Below are positions 5,021-60,247 of a DNA stretch of 64,000 nucleotides, piece after piece. The stretch lies in NCBI RefSeq assembly GCF_025698545.1, contig NC_068569.1:6324001-6388000 (forward strand). The letters run 5' to 3'. Source of the stretch: Gossypium raimondii (Eukaryota; Streptophyta; Magnoliopsida; Malvales; Malvaceae). The notes beneath the pieces are model-generated. The model did no database searches. It was not told where the DNA came from and saw only the letters and a list, made by a program, of their open reading frames with translations. The position numbers were made by a program, and so were the translations under genes. Numbering within the stretch: position 1 is the first letter of the stretch; every line of letters starts with the position of its first letter.

Positions 5021-5040
5021 TCATAGATAGATTACCACAG
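4958..5040. repeat. Three-copy 26-27 bp tandem repeat spanning a stop codon
   Basis: The unit CAGCCGAAATCATAGATAAG followed by ATTACCA starts at 4958, 4985 and 5012. The spacing is 27, 27 and 26 bp because the third copy lacks one base. The third copy carries the last codons and TGA of the glycosyltransferase gene (stop at 5021-5023, minus strand). The other two copies lie in its 3' UTR. Confidence 0.9.
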
Positions 5041-6199
5041 GTGGGAACCTGAACCTATCCGAAATGAAGGGTATTGCCTGTGGATTCTTCACCAGATCAT
5101 GGTAGAATGCATACTCTGCTTCGTAGTCATGTAACCGGAGCTCAGACTTCTGATTAGTATGGTAGTGATGCTTTGCAGAAGTTGATTTGCCAAAGCCAAA
5201 TATACCAACTTTGTCACAAATTCCCAATGCCAGCATAACAGCTTGCATCCCAGAGGAGTAATGAAACATAGAACCATCATGTGTAGAAGCCCATTCTCCC
5301 AATGCCTTCCTGGTCTCCTCCAAAAATCGTTTAGCCGAATAATACTTCACAATCCTAGCACATAACACATCAAAACGAGGATCTGTAATCAACAAAGGTG
5401 CCTTGTGAGACGAATTGCAGACTGTATAGTCCATGAAATGAACTGGTTGACAAATGTACATAATCATAGGAACATTCCTTCCATAAGGATGACAAAAGCA
5501 ACCTTCCCTCCTAGCACAAAGATGCAGTATATTGCTATTTACAAAGGAAATGCTTGTTTTTGATCCCACTTGCTCTTCAAACTTCTCAGTTCTAGCATTA
5601 TTCAATCTAATCACAATCTCATGACCATCAATCAGTTCCCCATAATCACGGTTCAGCAATATCCCACTGTTCCCCACAACAGCACAAGATTTATACTTTC
5701 TAGCTGAACTCATCAAGCCATTGTGTCTATCAATAGGGGTCTTCACTAAGCTAACTAAATCCATCATGATATCAGGCTGGAACGTCTTTTTTCTTGCCCA
5801 AAGCTGTAAATTCCTCCTAAAATCTAACCAATACCGATAAAATTTTGGGGACCTGAGTAATACCGGTAATCCATTAGAATTTTTGGATTTGGCGTCATGA
5901 TGACTGGAGCTCCTTGAAGTTGCAAAGTTCCTTTGCCTTCCTTGATTAGGAAAGTCCCTTTCCAGCAGCTGCTTTATTTCAAGCTTGGATTTTGCTTCAC
6001 CTATATCAATAGATGCAAACTTGAGCAAAGTGGAGTTAAAAACTTGGATTTGTGGGGGTTGGATTAGGACCGGGGTTGACTCCAACTCAGCTGAAACAGT
6101 AAAGACACCGCGGCGGGGACTGGCAATCCGACAGCTTAAGGTTGCAGTCAATGCAACAAGCATTAGAATGCTTATCAAGGGTCTGAACGACCTCTTCAT
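5021..6199 (-). CDS. GALT29A: GT29 family glycosyltransferase, beta-1,6-galactosyltransferase GALT29A-like
   Basis: Intronless, 392 residues from the ATG at 6199. An in-frame ATG at 6364 would add 55 residues, but the 6199 start gives the type II Golgi layout [17 protein letters not shown] (membrane anchor about 8-24) that matches the recalled Arabidopsis GALT29A N-terminus. The sialyltransferase-fold motifs are intact: motif L from residue 171 ([20 protein letters not shown]), motif S at about 313-336 ([14 protein letters not shown] ... VGIFGFG), motif III HHYH at 344-347 and motif VS H357-x4-E362. Plant members use this fold although plants lack typical sialic acid metabolism. GALT29A elongates beta-1,6-galactan side chains of arabinogalactan proteins in the Golgi. 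A sialyltransferase-like name is the alternative annotation. The C-terminus (PPVVIYL) ends inside a tandem repeat. Confidence 0.9.
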
Positions 6200-8204
6200 G
6201 AGAAGAATCACATTGGGGGGACGATAAATGGGGTTTGCTAGGTATGGCCAAAATAAGAAAAAAGTACGGATCTTCAATAAATCTGTATCGGATTCAGATC
6301 CATCTTCAGGTTCGTTTGGTATCCCAAATAGAGAAGAGGGGTTTAAGCACAAAAAAGAAACCATCTCATCTCAGGATTGGGTTTTACAGGAAACGAAGAA
6401 AAAATATCAGATCTACCTCATGAAAGAACAAATAATTTCTTATTTTTGAATAAAACCAGAAAGAGAAAGAGGGAAAGATGAAATCTTGAAGTGGGAAATC
6501 TCACAAGAAAGTGAAATGCAATTTGCAGATGAAAGCTAAAATAGGAAGGGTGCATTGTTTGATAACATGAAATCCATAATTCCAATATGAGATAATTTTA
6601 TTATTAAGCAAAGGAATTTATAAGACAAAAGAAGAGAGGGCAAAGTTTTAAGAAATTGCAGACAGTGGATTAGATGTTTTTGTGGAATAAAAAAGCAAAG
6701 GTTAGGTGAGGGGAAAATCTTCTGCTTCTCTTCTCAGCCCATTTAGAAAGCATGGTGTTTGCAGGTTGCAACTTGCAACTAACTTACCCGACCCGACTCA
6801 TATTTTGATTAGTTAAACATCAGTTAAATCAGGTATTACAGAATTGTTGTTCAAACTATTCCTCTTTTTCTATTTATTTGGATATCTGGATCTTTTAATA
6901 AAAAAAAATTCCATCTTATTTTACTAAAATAAAATTACACTATCAAGTTCTTATTAGTTAGTGTTGTAAAATAAAGCGAGAAAAATTTAATATTTTAAGT
7001 TTTATTTTTGAAATAAAATAACATAATTACTTTTAAACACTAAAATATATTTTCTTTGCTAAATACAGATATTACATCCAACCAAGAAAATACAGATATT
7101 ACGTTAAGGTCAAACTTAATTTAAAAACCATACTTTATATGATAATAAATATATGTATTATCTAATCAAAATTGATTATTCTACTCTTCGATTCAAATTA
7201 CATTCATTAAATCAGTGCTATATCATTTATCTTATGCACTACTCCTATAAATTTATTATCTCAATGGACTTCTAATTTAATTAACGTTAATATTTAAAAG
7301 AAAAAGAGTAGCAAAATAACATTTAATCAAAATAATTATTAACAGTGAGAAATAAGTTTTTTTATTATAGATAATAAAAACTTTTGTTTAATTTATTCAT
7401 AAAATTTTGATGTTTATATATTGCACATGCACATAATTATATTTATTCAATATAAAATTAAATTAGAGATTTTTTAATGTGCATGATTAAATCAAAATTA
7501 AAATTTCAACTACAATCAAAATTCAACATACATAACTACACTAAATTAAAATTCATGTAAATGATTCTACATTAAATTAAATTAAAATTAATTTACCCTA
7601 AATATTAATATAATTTATATAACTAAAATTCAAATCTTTTACCACTTTAACTTAAGACTAATAAAAATTATTCATATGACCTTACCATATTAACCAATTG
7701 TTTATGATTAGATTATTGAATAAATCTTTGATAAAAAACTATTGAATATATTTTTCATATTAAAATTTTCATTTTATAAATCTTATTATATAATATTTTT
7801 TACAACAATAACTGAATCCAGACTTGAGAAAAATAAACACACTGTGTATTTGAATTGCGAATTATAGAATTTGCATTTTATCTGGACATAGAATTAATCT
7901 CCTTATTTTTCTTTCTAAATTTGTGGAATTAAAGGATTAATCCCTTGTAACACCACAAACAGACGACTCAATGGAAAACCAACATTGACGATATAATTTA
8001 AGAAAACGTGAAATATACCATTTATAGGCAACAACGACAACCACCTAAAACACTTCCTACTGCTTGACCGGCCACCGACCGGCTAGATCCCATCATCAAT
8101 CTAAATTTCATCAGTTTTCCGATGACCCAGATTCTTAAATTTGACAGACACAATCGGAAAAAACCCCTCCCCCCCCCCCCTTTTTTTCCTTCAGTCAATT
8201 TTAT
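6200..8204. other. Upstream region of the glycosyltransferase gene and AT-rich spacer
   Basis: About the first 500 bases should include the promoter and 5' UTR of the GT29 gene on the minus strand. From about 6840 to 7900 the sequence is very AT-rich (many AATTAAAATT-like runs) with no convincing gene. A polypyrimidine tract (C-run then T-run) lies at about 8167-8188, just beyond the stop of the next gene. Confidence 0.5.
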
Positions 8205-51873: not shown

Positions 51874-54366
51874 GCCTATTTATATTGTTGGAGCATCGGC
51901 ATTAATCTCAGGTTTGGAAATAGGGTTTGTAATACATGATACGTTAATGCATGCCAGGTTTCTTGATGGGAATGTTTCTTCTTATCTTCTGAGTGGTCAC
52001 CCTGATGACTTTTCTAGATCTATGTTTACCCAAACATAGGTGAATGCCAAATACGAGTATGCATATGGTATATGATGAATCTTGTTCCTTAAAGTAGCAA
52101 ATCATACTAAGCCCCACAAAGTTTAAACTCATTTATCTAGAATTTTAAGCTTTGGACAATGAAGTGGGCAACGGATACTATGTTTTATGATCACTAACAA
52201 TGTTTCTAAGTTGTAAGAGCTATTTGTTGCAACTAAAAAGTAAGGAGTATATCGTTTCTAAATTTTATTAATATGAATATGTCAATTATAGATCCTTTAA
52301 GTTGGCATTGTGAGTTGTTTCAAAAAATCACTGCTTGAAATCCTAAATTCCGGGGTTTATTTCAACAAAACTTTGGAAGGTTCATACTAAACATGAAGGA
52401 GGAACATTTTAGTAGGGTAGAGCTATCTCTCGTTTAGGGGAGCTTTGTTTCTTCGTCATCAGGAAGGAAGGAAAATGTAACAATTTGCCATTACCACCTA
52501 GTTTTCTGCTTACCATTAACCGTTGTTAATTGCATATTGATACTAGTGGTCAAGCTTGTTGAGTGCTTTTGAAGTTATACAATATATTCGAAAGGGGTTA
52601 TGATTTCAAAGCTACTTTTCATGCGGAGTAGCTGTCTTTCTGCTCATTAACATTCTGATTTTTCACTATTGAATCGTTTCTTTTGAGCACTCTTGTCCAG
52701 GTGTTTTGTTAAAGAGCCTGAAGTATTTCAAAAGCTTTTACCTTTCTAGCTTCATTTAAAAAAAAAAAAATCCGCCGTGGATTTCTGAAGTAAACCATAA
52801 ACATTAGGAAATTGGATTTGTTTTTACATGCAAAATTGAAACACCTTTAATACTAAAGTTCAAAGAGTATTAAGTTTGAAAAAGTAATATGAAATTCAAT
52901 AACTTAAATTCTTAAAGTTTTTCTTCCCAAAAAAAGCCCTTAAATTTCAAAAAATGGTGTCTCAGGGACAAAAAAAAAACCCATCTCCATATAGAAATTC
53001 AAATAAACAAAGAAAAGTGGATATTAACATCTTTATAGAAACTGATGTCACCTCCATCTACTTTTGTGTAATAAAAGTTAAAATATACGAGATGCATGCC
53101 TACATCTTAAATAGAAAAACATGAATGTTAATAATTTGTATTTCCATTTAAGTGTTTTCAAGTTGCTAGTTTTCAGCTTGTTATACCAACTGATGATAAT
53201 ATTTCTTCGTGTTTTTCTGCTCATGATGTAGGACTGCATGATATATATCAGCCTGGTGTATTTGATCTCCTAGGGAAGGTCTTAGGACTGAATTCGATGT
53301 TATCTAGGTTAAGCAGAGTATTTTGCTAGCCCCTTCATCAATCTTGTTGAAACTCTAGCTGCGCTGAGATTAATTCTTCAACCCATTCCAAGGAACTAGC
53401 TGATCATATACTAGCTTAAGTTGGCTTTGAACCAAATTTAGCTTCCATTGGTTCATTGAGAGTTGTGGGATAGGCTCCTGGGTGAACTTGAACTGCTTTT
53501 GATCAATGAGATGTTTAACGAAGAATCTGAGTAATACTATTTTGTCTATTGCAGCTACAATAAATAAGACAACTGTATATGGACTGTTACATTATGATTA
53601 GAATAATGGGGCCCAGTTGACAGTTTAAATATTTCTTCAATTTGAACATGTGGCATGGACATGCTGTATCACCTTATGTGTCAATAAGGTGTAAAGTGGA
53701 CCCCCAATGCCTGTCAACTTGCCAAGCAGGATTAGATTGTAAGTGCTTTATAGGGTGATAAATTTTGGAAGTTCAATGGCAAAAAATTTTACTGTGTTTA
53801 ATTGCATCATGGTTAGAACCATTATCTTTTGGTTAAATATCATATATTGAGTTGCATATAATCAGTTATGAGTTGGAATTTAGAACCTTCATCGTTTTCA
53901 GGATGTGTTTGGAGTCCTTGGTTTGTTTTTCTTAATGTGTTGTATGATATCCAGGAAAAGGCTTTGCTTTTGATTTATCAGTTACAAATGATCACAAGCT
54001 AACCCCACATTTCAAAGTTATCCAAAGACCTTTTGATTGACAACAGTTCAGGTGTTTTCTCACTAAACGAGACAAGATGTAATAAGTGCCAGAAACTCTC
54101 AATGCAAGAGGACAAAGAGAATTTCTTGACATTTGTCATTAGGTGTTGTTGGTGTTATCAGTGAAACGCTGTGCTAAACTCGTGTTTTCTGACAACACAT
54201 TTTTGTTTGCAACACATTTTGCCTGTTAAATTGTCACTTTAAGGGGGTGCATCTCATGCAAAGACCTTTTCTTCTCACCTTGGATAGAATATTTCCTCCA
54301 TTTTCAGTTGTTTTCATTTAATTAGCATCAGAAATGGCTTTTGTGTTCATTTAATTAGCATCAGAA
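51874..54366. other. Upstream region of the HPt-like gene
   Basis: Base composition is more balanced than the transposon-rich spacer to the left, so it may contain promoter and leader introns of the gene at 54367. No further protein-coding exon could be supported. A 60-codon frame at 51857-52036 has no recognisable similarity. Confidence 0.4.
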
Positions 54367-54380
54367 ATGGCTTTGTCTAT
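54315..54380 (+). repeat. 33-bp tandem duplication around the HPt-like start codon
   Basis: TTCATTTAATTAGCATCAGA followed by AATGGCTTT occurs twice with a 33-base period. The second copy holds the main ATG (54367). The first holds an upstream ATG (54334) in the same frame that runs MAFVFI and stops at TAA (54352-54354). Any mRNA beginning upstream of 54334 therefore carries a six-codon upstream ORF. Confidence 0.85.
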
Positions 54381-56800
54381 TGTCAAAGGACTGCTTGAAC
54401 AATATGTGCAATCACTGTTCAATGAGGTTCTTGGTTTCTCTTCCCTTTTTAAAATTTTTTTAGTATCTTTGGTGCCATGAGTGTCCTTTGGATTTAATAT
54501 GCTATCTATGCATGGGGCTTTTGGTTAATTTTCCATTTGACCTTGAATCAGATGTCTAAGCATTGTAGGTAAAATTTTGGGGATTATATTAAAAATTTTT
54601 GAATTCTTTTATATATTTTTATCCTGTTTGGATTATAGCTTCTATTGTAGACATGCACTTGCTCAAGTATTTATGGCATTTTTGCATTAACTTACTATTG
54701 AATCTGTGTGGTTTTATGGTTGTTCTTCACAGGGAATTATAAATGAACAGTTTTCTCATATTCAACATTTGAAAATGGTTGGAAGAACTGAACATTTTGT
54801 CCAGTTGATCAATACGTACTGCCTCGATGTGGAAAGCATCTTAGCACAACTTGCAAGCTCCATGTATTTTTGTTACTAAATTGTTTGAACTCAAGAAATT
54901 AATTTTCTTTTACTTGGATTATCTTAATGGGGCTACATGTTTGCAGTGATCTCCCTGAAGTGGATTTTTCTAAGTTGGCTGCTCTTGCTGCAGAAGTAAC
55001 AGAGAGAAGCTCCCGGTAATGTTGACCTTAGTTTGAATCCTGGTTTAGTTCATCTTATAGAATGTTTGCCAGATGAAGAATATTGATTGAAATTTTTGTC
55101 TGATGGTGTTTTTCTTTTAAGAGAAAATTGTAGTAGTAAATGAGTTCTTCATTGTATGCTTAAAGTATTAAAACTAATGTTGAACGTGGAATAATGTGTT
55201 CCTTGATTAAGAAAAGAGTGCATGTATTTATAGGTGAGGCATGTGTTTTAGGTCTGCAGCGAAGATTCGAGGTATGGCAAAATGCACAACTAACACATTA
55301 GTAGAATCACTGCCTATCTATCCCCTTTGATCTAAAATCATTGCAGATGCAGTGTAAAATGAACAAAAGATGTGGAGCACCTCCGCTGAAATAGGATGTT
55401 GATTAAATAGAAGCATCCATATATGCCAAAAATAAAATTCAAAAGGCGACAAACAAGTATGTATAGCCAGCATGCGTTTTCTTACGTATCAATATACATC
55501 ATTAGATTTTGCAGTTGGAAGACCAGTTGGCAGAGAGAGAAACAGGAAAATAATTAAAAGATTGAACATTTGATCTTGTAAGGATTTGTGATGCTTCATT
55601 TTATGCAGCTTTAGCTTTTTTAAGAAAAACATTTATGTCCAAAGCAATATTTACTTTGTCTTGTTTAAATTGAAAGTTAAGGTATGATATTTTTATGTAG
55701 TTTAGTTTTAATTTATGCAATCATTATTTACGGATTACCGAGTGGATAATATCCCTTGCCCCCACCAAATGCATTTAAACAGTATTGGTGCTGAGCACGT
55801 GAGACTCGCATGTGTGGATCTAATGCAGGCCTGTGAGCAGATGCAGAAGCAGAAGTATGAAACTTTCTTGAATGCACTTTTTCACTGATCTTTTTATCTA
55901 CATGTGCTGCCACGTGAGAAAATGTTGACATGTGTATTCATCAACGCTGCACTATTATCATGCTTTTACTTTTATGGCATAGCTAATCTTTTCATTGAAA
56001 TAGGTGTTTCTGGTGTTTGATTTTATTTGTCCCACTTGCATTTATCTGGTCGAGATCATTCAGTCCTTATGCTGTATATTCTGCTTATGTTTTAAGGAAT
56101 TTTCTATTTAAGCATGTGCCATGTGTTTCTATAAATATCCGTATTACAGATTCCTCCTGGCCTTGGACTGGACAAAGACTGAGTTCACTCAAACCCAGAA
56201 CAAGTTGCAGGTCCTTGTCCAGGTATAAACTCAACTTCAATTCATATGACAGTTGCATTATATGAAATTTTTATGGACATTATAATGAAAATAAACCACA
56301 CAGAGAGAGTAAGTTCAGATCCAATCAAGCTGGTTACCATTTTAGGCCTTGCATTAGTTTGTGATCACTTCGGTCATTTTGGTAATGCCTTTCTGGTTTT
56401 GTTTTCTGAACCGTAATGTCCTGAGGTCTCGGGTCAAGAAGAGTTGAGTCTCTTTATGACAGACCATACGTCATAAATCAGGTTAAGTGTTTAGACATAG
56501 TTATCCACAATGAGTAATGTTGAGCGTATCAATCATTAGAAGCTAACCTTAATTAGTAAGCAGAGTTTGCATTTATGGAAATTTATTACTTAGCGCATTG
56601 ATAGCTTATTGTCTTGAATTTGAACTTCATTGAGCATAAATTAATGAGGTTATTACATGATACACTTCGCATATGAGATCGATAACAGTAATAATAATTG
56701 TGTGGTGGTGGTTTGAGGTTGTTAATTATTATTGCTTCGGCTGCATTGAATGCAGATGGAGCGGAGGATCATGAGACTGGAAGCAAAACAAAAAAATTAG
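54367..56800 (+). CDS. Pseudo histidine-containing phosphotransfer protein (His replaced by Ala), six exons
   Basis: Exons: 54367-54426, 54733-54863, 54947-55015, 55783-55854, 56150-56222, 56756-56800, giving 149 residues. All junctions are GT-AG and in phase. The small exons match the usual plant AHP gene layout. The N-terminus MALSIVKGLLEQYVQSLFNE, then GIINEQFSHIQHL and FVQLINTYCLDVESIL, follow the HPt four-helix pattern, and SSRIGAEHVRLACVDLMQAC matches the usual SSSIGAxxVxxAC block. In AHPs the preceding helix carries HQLKGSS with the phosphorylated His. Here it reads DFSKLAALAAEVTERSSR, so Ala79 sits at the His site and the adjoining Lys and Gly are Thr and Glu. AHPs relay phosphate from cytokinin and ethylene-type hybrid kinases to response regulators. 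Without the His this protein could only bind or compete, as known for Arabidopsis AHP6 (Asn at that site). Confidence 0.85.
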
Positions 56801-57698: not shown

Positions 57699-60247
57699 AT
57701 GGCCACATCCACTGTCTTCACCGGTGTCAGCCTCTTCAAGTCCAATAACTCCACTAAACTCTTCACTTCAACTCGGTTCTCCGACTCCAAGCAACAACTC
57801 AGCCCCAACTCAGTGAAATGTTGCTCAAAAACAACCACCGCAACAACGGAGGAGGCGACTGGTCGTCTAGTCACGGTGAAGAACGGGAACGATTCGCTCG
57901 AAATATGTCGAGTCCTTAACGGCATGTGGCAGACCAGTGGAGGTTGGGGCAGAATCGACCGAGACGCCGCCGTTGAAGCCATGCTTCGCTACGCTGACGC
58001 CGGTCTCTCCACCTTCGACATGGCCGACCACTGTACGCTCAATTTTTTCCGTAGACGTGGCGTTATTTAATTGGTTTGTTTTATTAATTTTCCTGACCAC
58101 ACAATAAAGATAGCTTCCTTAAATCCACGTGTCACGTTCTTTCATTTGCCACGTTCCTATGCCTCATGTTCTATATTTTTGGCATACGAATATGGCACTA
58201 TTGGATGCTTTTTTAGGTGAAAAACAATTTGAATGGCAGAATTCTTACAGAGTTCTTTAAGCAACTTCACTTTGAATTCGGTTAAATGGGAAGTAAAAAC
58301 TGGGTGTAGTCCAATAAGAAAGTTGACCCCAAACCAAATTCAGTGTGTCATTACTGAAGATAAAAGAAGAAGCATAGTTAAGAATGGAACTGACTCATTG
58401 GAAATATGTAGAGTTGTAAATGGGATGTGGCAAACAAGTGGGGGATGGGGTAGAATTGATCGAGACAATGCTGTTGATGCTATGCTTCGATATGCTGATG
58501 CTGGACTTACCACTTTTGATATGGCTGATATATGTAATCCCCTTATTGCTTTTTTTACTTTTTTGTAAATGAATGTCTTACTTTGAAATATGTAGTATGT
58601 GCGCCAGTGTTTGCATATGTTTGTTGGGCGCATTTGTTGCATCTGTTTTGGTTAAGTAGAAAGTTTATAAAGTGGAAATGATTGTTTGTGAAATTAGGAT
58701 ACCCAAGTTTTTAATGGTAAAGATCTTTGCATGAGTCTAGACAAGTTTAGTTGATTGTGGACTTTCTTCTTTTAAGTATTTGAAGCATATAAAAGGTCTA
58801 TATGTGAATTTTCAGTAAGTCGAATTTCTTACAGTGTTACGAGTTCTTTCGTTGTTAAGCTTCTATGGTTTTGCAGACGGGCCTGCAGAAGATCTTTATG
58901 GCATCTTTATCAATAGAGTGCGTCGGGAGCGTCCACCAGAGTACTTGGAAAAAGTCAGAGGGTGAGTCGTAGCCATATCCATAAGCAGCACAATGTTTAT
59001 GTTCTTCTGCTAGATTTGGGTTAATAAAAGCTTTCTTGGGCACTAAACTAGTTTACTCTGTGCTATTCTACTTTGTAGGCTACTTAATTTTGTTGGGTTA
59101 ATAAAAGCTTGTGGACCAAAATAGTTTGGGAAGAGTAATTTTGTTGGTTTTCCTTACCCTGTTGCATTATTCATGCAGTCTCACTAAATGGGTACCTCCA
59201 CCAGTAAAGATGATAAGTGGCTATGTCAGGGAGAACATTGATGTCTCACGCAAGAGGATGGATGTGCCTTCATTGGATATGCTTCAGTTTCACTGGTACT
59301 ATTAAGTATCTGTCACACTTTCTTTCCACTTAGAGTAATTTGCTGCGGAAATTTAAAACCTCCCTTCAAAACTTGATAGGATGATGCAAGCTTGATTTTT
59401 AATTTCACAGAGAACCATATTTCTTTAAGGGGATAGGGAGCTAGAAGCTTCAAAGTCTCTTGTTGATTTTATATTGTTTGTTCTGATTAGTAATGGCATG
59501 AGGTAAAAGCTCGCATTATTTGTTACAGAATATATTATTGACTTCAGCATTGTCGTCTATTAAGGTAGACAGAATTGGCTGAAAGTATTTGCTCAATTTA
59601 CTTTCTTACTGTATCAAATATAAACTTTTTTATAGACTATTTATTGCATTCTAGTGATATTTGGTTCATCTATTATTCAATTCTTAATTATAATGAAGTT
59701 TCAACATCAACAATCCTGTATTGATTTTGAAGAATTTTCATATTTGTTTGATAAGGAGACTCGACTTGTTAATTTCCTTCCTACTGAGTACCGAATGTTT
59801 CTTTGTATCGATTTGAAACAGGTGGGATTATTCGAATCCTGGCTACCTTGATGCTCTAAAAAACCTTACTGATCTGAAAGAGGAAGGTTAGAATTCATTC
59901 TCTACTATTCTAGTTTTAATTTTGAGTAGCCTGCAATTCTTGATTTAATCAAACTACTACTCTGATCAATGTGCAGGTAAAATTAAAACTGTTGCTTTGA
60001 CAAATTTTGATACGGAAAGGCTGCAAATAATACTAGAGAATGGAATTCCTGTTGTTAGTAATCAGGTATTTATTTTCGAGTAGTAATTAGGTATTAGTTT
60101 TATCGCTTTCCTTGGTAATTTATATTGTCTGTGGCATTGCTGATAATATATATGGTGGTTCCATCAGGTGCAACATTCAATTGTTGACATGCGCCCCCAG
60201 CAGAAAATGGCAGAGCTCTGTCAGCTTACAGGAGTCAAACTGATAAC

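Follow-up and report, generated by a model that had tools for sequence, protein, structure and literature searches.

The locus examined here raises the question of what a plant HPt protein is for once the histidine that accepts the phosphate has gone. It lies in a stretch of 64,000 nucleotides of Gossypium raimondii (contig C5, positions 6324001-6388000; hereafter the window), within a genome of 750.8 Mb in 281 contigs, and the coordinates of its parts are given within the window. A preliminary description of this DNA had proposed that six exons join into a 149-residue HPt-like protein with alanine at the phosphorylation site, and we refer to this protein as the Ala79 HPt.

The gene is on the plus strand, and its six exons of 60, 131, 69, 72, 73, and 45 nucleotides join into 450 nucleotides that encode 149 amino acids and a stop codon. 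All ten borders of the five introns are GT/AG, and the frame contains neither a stop nor a frameshift. Exon 1 (54367-54426) encodes residues 1-20 from a start codon at 54367-54369, and exon 2 (54733-54863) carries the N-terminal partner-contact positions, where Gln26 and Leu33 (AHP1 numbering) are retained. The former phosphotransfer motif is borne by exon 3 (54947-55015), which is separate from exon 4 (55783-55854), unlike in AHP6-like genes; exon 5 (56150-56222) follows, and exon 6 (56756-56800), which includes the stop codon, carries MERRIMRLEAKQKN, similar to LERSIVELETNQK of a paralogue at C9:40.41 Mb (hereafter the C9 paralogue). Around the start codon, we also observed a tandem repeat with a 33-base offset (54334-54369), in which an upstream ATG opens a frame of six codons; the stop of this frame, at 54354, precedes the ATG of the gene by 12 bases.

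A spliced aligner written for this analysis, with residues of maize ZmHP2 as its sole input template, returned the same internal borders (including both borders of exon 5) with a score of 172; the alignment begins within exon 1, recovering 54394-54426, and stops within exon 6, recovering 56756-56770. For comparison, the same template scored 39.5 on average (sd 6.1, maximum 54) on 84 control stretches of 2.8 kb, which overlap one another and were drawn from the window on both strands outside the gene and on the minus strand alone over it. Similarly, phmmer searches against the PDB matched ZmHP2 (E = 8.3e-22, residues 3-141), OsHP1 (3.7e-21), AHP1 (about 1e-16), and MtHPt1, and homology to solved plant HPts thus spans nearly the full length of the protein. 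These results confirm a real, intact plant HPt gene with the exon structure first proposed.

A search of the whole genome with the Pfam Hpt profile (PF01627) found nothing, probably owing to the shortness of the individual exons, and the same model did not report the Ala79 HPt protein at E<=1; all five relatives tried, including a Phe form and an Asn form, scored above its cut-off. HPt loci were found by protein searches conducted exon by exon in which only the best candidates were scored, so the 19 HPt-like loci modelled are a lower bound, and the genome holds at least that number; a weak further match lies at C10:15.06 Mb (E 3.7). The residue at the phospho-site is His in 14 loci, Asn in three (the AHP6-like copies at C6:31.85, C6:58.24, and C9:32.96 Mb), Phe in one (C5:27.35 Mb), and Ala in one. 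Several models have uncertain ends, namely those of a tandem pair on C6 and the last exon of the C5:27.35 gene, and trimmed versions were used for the trees. Short exons are typical of this family: those of the C9 paralogue, which bears His, measure 60, 131, 69, 72, 73, and 42 nucleotides, and cotton HPs are reported to have "generally" six exons (PMC9703675), a pattern that the Ala79 HPt gene follows in exon number and sizes. The "tiny" exons pointed out in the preliminary description are therefore of the size given there, without being unusual. In all three AHP6-like copies, exons 3 and 4 are fused into a single exon of 144 nucleotides, whereas the corresponding 69 and 72 nucleotides are separate in the Ala79 HPt gene.

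Published surveys of G. raimondii report eight HPs, two of them Asn pseudo-HPs (PMC10102465), and 18 HPs, including four on chromosome 9, with emphasis on the HQxKGSS motif (PMC9703675). With chromosomes 6, 9, 10, and 11 of the former taken as C9, C5, C6, and C10, six of its eight tabulated genes match our loci in strand and approximate position, and the remaining two, on its chromosome 7, fit C11 read from the opposite end. The differing counts (8, 18, and the 19 loci modelled here) may partly reflect that the Pfam Hpt model misses the Ala79 protein. The minus strand of C5:27347000-27351400 (L028, L058) carries a second His-less HPt that is not of the AHP6 type, with Phe at the site (ELCFKIKGGAACLG) and an uncertain last exon; a strongly diverged HPt that retains its His lies on the minus strand of C13:57854529-57856131 (L026), and two diverged AHP4-like HPt genes with His adjoin each other at C6:57.16 and 57.18 Mb (L049, L052).

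At the phospho-site, the alignment places Ala79 (codon GCA, 54990-54992, its place counted from the exons) under the phospho-His79 of AHP1, and HQLKGSSSS has become AEVTERSSR. The phospho-accepting His of the HQxKGSSxS motif is thus absent, as the preliminary description stated, and Gln80, Lys82, Gly83, Ser84, and Ser87 are replaced as well. That description had also drawn attention to the Lys and Gly that follow the site, and both are indeed gone; the Lys, however, is missing from the three AHP6-like copies too (Met, Met, and Ile), and it is the loss of Gly that sets the Ala79 HPt apart from them. Where other aligned HPts have this Gly, at H+4, the Ala79 HPt has Glu83 (codon GAG, 55002-55004), a substitution shared by 6 HPt sequences among some 10,000 (PMC6341664). 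Its counterpart in yeast Ypd1, G68E, abolishes phosphotransfer, with acceptance of phosphate at 0.3% and relay at 0.08% of the wild-type level, and leaves binding in place (Kd 0.5 versus 0.94 uM for wild type; PMC6341664). The yeast protein is an engineered mutant with a single change and, unlike the Ala79 HPt, it retains the His and the remainder of its docking face. Judged from its sequence, the Ala79 HPt is a pseudo-HPt and not a working HPt: phosphate relay through the usual site is impossible with Ala at the site, and Glu at H+4 reinforces this.

Most of the partner-contact face has changed as well. As a contact set, we used the 13 AHP1 residues that make bonding contacts in the complexes with ARR1 and AHK5 (PMC11903765), taking the "Ser83" in its AHK5 contact list as Gly83. 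Only 2 of these 13 residues are retained in the Ala79 HPt, and none of the six in the part around the site. The C9 paralogue retains 11 (6/6 around the site), each of the three AHP6-like copies 10 (5/6), and the fast-evolving C13:57.85 protein, which bears His, 8 (5/6), while the Phe form at C5:27.35 retains 3 of the 13 although its Lys and Gly after the site are still there. The other His-bearing rows retain from 8 (AHP2) to 12 contacts, ZmHP2 having 9, and each has at least five of the six around the site. Since AHP2 is a working HPt with 8 of the 13, and other His-bearing rows vary from 8 to 12, full identity at these positions is unnecessary for function. Four receptor hot spots have been modelled in AHP2, namely Asp54, Gln83, Ser87, and Ser90 (PMC6539988); in our mapping, the positions of the last three are lost in the Ala79 HPt and that of Asp54 is kept, and the AHP6-like copies have the reverse pattern, with Asp replaced by Glu and the other three retained. 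Leu33 and Asp52 (AHP1 numbering; mapped from the modelled hot spots Leu35 and Asp54 of AHP2) are both retained in the Ala79 HPt. Compared with the C9 paralogue, identity amounts to 2 of 14 positions in the contacts including His79, 16 of 39 remaining core positions, and 34 of 95 elsewhere. By these counts, the contact face of the Ala79 HPt has been kept no better than the remainder of the protein, although HPts are reported to be most strongly conserved there (PMC6539988).

These observations bear directly on the reading by analogy with AHP6, an established inhibitor (PMC5975490), according to which the Ala79 HPt would dock on the receivers of histidine kinases or response regulators, take no phosphate, and damp cytokinin signalling or another phosphorelay. 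The missing His, the retained hydrophobic core, and the retained hot spots Asp52 and Leu33 agree with this reading, as does a Glu at H+4 that in Ypd1 blocks transfer and spares binding (PMC6341664). Yet 11 of the 13 AHP1 contacts are replaced, among them those at Gln83, Ser87, and Ser90 of AHP2, which are three of its four receptor hot spots as modelled (PMC6539988) and which the three AHP6-like copies keep. The analogy drawn in the preliminary description is accordingly weakened, with 2 of 13 contacts against 10 of 13 in the AHP6-like copies, and a contact face kept no better than the rest argues against a general competitor of the AHP6 type. Because binding can outlive such a change in Ypd1 G68E, we still hold this reading as a doubtful but live one. 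For reference, AHP1-5 bind ARR1 at 94-175 nM (PMC11903765).

In the trees, the Ala79 HPt falls outside the AHP6-like copies, with marginal support from topology testing. In a tree of 23 rows, from which two other long rows (C5:27.35 and C13:57.85) were left out, the Ala79 HPt groups with the C9 paralogue at 87/68, and both group with OsHP1 and ZmHP2 at 98/98. When 25 rows are used, the Ala79 HPt, C5:27.35, C13:57.85, the C9 paralogue, OsHP1, and ZmHP2 form one set (95/94) whose inner order is weak (38/3); the Ala79 HPt pairs with C5:27.35 at 74/82, and since the tool warns of long-branch attraction, we place more weight on the 23-row tree. Constraining the Ala79 HPt to the AHP6-like copies gave p = 0.048 in the AU test, which is marginal and involves one long branch, and constraining it to the AHP4-like copies gave p = 0.117, which is not significant. 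Its branch is 2.0 long, as against 0.38 for its C9 partner. The trees thus point to membership of the OsHP1/ZmHP2 (OsAHP) clade, with the C9 paralogue as the nearest relative in the genome. With this protein, the Ala79 HPt shares tree position, the sizes of exons 1-5, the C-terminus, and a duplicated block; it differs by the absence of the phospho-His, by an identity of 35% (52 of 148 columns), and by the loss of most partner-contact residues. With AHP6/HPT-N it has in common the missing phospho-His and the loss of Lys at H+3, but it has Ala instead of Asn, no Gly at H+4, separate exons 3 and 4, lost contacts, and another place in the tree, and we reject membership of AHP6 on these grounds. 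The idea that this pseudo-HPt has an origin different from that of AHP6 is therefore supported, subject to the marginal AU result, while the suggestion that this route is possibly older is not supported: the closest paralogue still has its His, and in the AHP6 clade, with fused exons 3 and 4, a basal position is reported for an Amborella protein (PMC13206810). Published trees disagree on whether dicots occur in the OsAHP clade. One, made without cotton, has no eudicots there (PMC13206810), and clade 3 of another, which we take to be the OsAHP clade, contains four dicot species, three of which are said to have long branches (PMC12785465).

The genomic neighbourhood offers a view of the age of the pair. 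An A20/AN1 zinc-finger gene, a P450 gene (both identified by Pfam in the window), and an HPt gene occur together in the window on C5 and at C9:40.36-40.41 Mb, in the same order with the P450 inverted; the C9 copies of the zinc finger and the P450, at 40.364 and 40.383 Mb, adjoin the C9 paralogue. The P450 pair across the two blocks has a Ks of 1.33 (LWL85, the sole method that gave a value), which makes an old duplication the probable origin of the two HPts, perhaps in the eudicot triplication; the dS of the HPt pair itself (NG86, 3.4) is saturated. For comparison, the P450 of the window and its copy at C9:34.57 have a Ks of 0.43-0.57, near the level of about 0.5 reported for the cotton-lineage polyploidy (PMC5975490). 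The duplication behind the Ala79 HPt was probably segmental and of whole-genome origin, and the loss of His came later than that duplication, as the C9 paralogue still carries it. A very recent duplicate was also considered and rejected, since a protein search of the genome found no close second copy. Likely recent duplicates of the block lie at C7:38.58 and C8:0.62-0.67 Mb, where protein searches gave no HPt match. About 6 kb from the C13:57.85 HPt there is an A20/AN1 zinc-finger gene 72% identical to that of the window; for the three other window genes searched, no match was listed near this locus, and the orientation there also differs. The C13:57.85 HPt could be the recent-duplication partner, or possibly another duplicate of the same block.

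Two further observations concern other genes of the window. At 5021-6370, parts of the first 139 residues of a gene of the sialyltransferase family (GT29) recur as separate partial copies on C1, C3, C7, C8, C9, C10, and C11, several with a stop inside the match. Within 57699-58535, the first exon of an aldo/keto reductase-like gene (just under the Pfam cut-off) has a second copy, 68% identical, about 0.2 kb beyond it.

Whether the protein has been under selection since the duplication was approached in two ways. We simulated neutral change along a path from the C9 paralogue gene, as a stand-in for the ancestor, to the observed divergence (2000 runs). The Ala79 HPt keeps 36 of the 40 columns of its hydrophobic core, compared with a neutral mean of 27.7 (sd 2.7), and one run in 2000 reached 36; stop codons arose 11.5 times on average along a simulated path, and not one of the 2000 paths was free of them. 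In a branch codon model of 12 genes and 134 codons, the Ala79 HPt branch had an omega of 0.22, and fixing it at 1 cost 6.04 in 2dlnL; an omega of 0.5 was not rejected (2.1), a single omega for all branches was nearly as good (0.6), and all these figures are soft because synonymous sites are saturated. The core and the codon model argue for selection on the fold over much of the history of the protein, and this selection may have stopped recently.

This evidence also weighs on the view that the gene is a dying duplicate, relaxed since the duplication, weakly or not expressed, and on its way to becoming a pseudogene. The fast evolution along its branch would fit such a fate, as would the retention of only 6 of the 16 columns that are invariant in the 19 canonical rows and the finding of no close further copy in the genome; in Medicago, moreover, HPT-X (Arg) genes are weakly expressed, and pseudogenisation has been allowed for weakly expressed atypical genes (PMC6518804). 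A gene decaying since that time is nevertheless hard to reconcile with an open frame, intact intron borders, and a core retained far above the simulations, and the core together with the disfavoured omega of 1 makes a reading as dead DNA less likely. We consider the dying duplicate improbable, and a local pseudogene is likewise unlikely. The last alternative, that the locus is not an HPt or is a chance assembly of exon-like stretches, has the silence of Pfam Hpt at E<=1 on its side and is practically negligible given PDB matches at E 1e-21 to 1e-22, internal borders recovered from maize residues at a score of 172 against a control maximum of 54 (on which chance assembly is rejected), and an HPt partner in the duplicated block.

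The explanation that we prefer, with a confidence that stands at the midpoint, is that of an intact HPt of the OsHP1/ZmHP2 clade that became a phospho-independent binding protein. An old segmental, probably whole-genome, duplication would have been followed by rapid change of the Ala79 HPt, in which the phospho-His, its neighbouring residues, and the greater part of the receiver-docking surface were lost while selection kept the core of the helical bundle. Binding independent of phosphate is the most likely role that the sequence suggests, with partners that have changed or narrowed, rather than that of a general competitor of the AHP6 type; the protein may have left the phosphorelay for another job. 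A stronger version, which we rate as less likely than not, is that selection has held the HPt fold for tens of millions of years after the relay, with the docking face dismantled and the core kept, in a phospho-independent adaptor with new partners.

Other His-less HPts outside AHP6 are already in print, and the Ala79 HPt adds a further one. They include HPT-X of legumes and Vitis, with His replaced by Arg, Ile, or Leu (PMC6518804), the "HP-like" genes of Populus, Prunus, and Arabidopsis (At4g04402), which lack the His and whose role is given as unknown (PMC3866579), and Gln or Tyr forms close to AHP4 (PMC4916222, PMC5000602). No Ala form was met in the mostly open-access literature that was searched. 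By its lack of His and its place outside AHP6, the Ala79 HPt probably belongs with the HPT-X or HP-like proteins of other dicots, from which it differs by its Ala and beside which it is set by their published descriptions.

Discussion of pseudo-HPts has usually centred on their role as AHP6-like restraints on cytokinin signalling. The most interesting feature of the Ala79 HPt, as read from its residues, is that its core has been kept and its docking face lost, in a genome that also holds its His-bearing block partner and fast-evolving relatives. If the stronger version is true, the Ala79 HPt, together with the Phe form at C5:27.35, would mean that dicots hold a "post-relay" HPt lineage that domain searches have partly missed. 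The loss of contacts beside a kept core, set against the His-bearing partner, allows a direct comparison of which parts of the HPt fold are selected once the relay is dropped.
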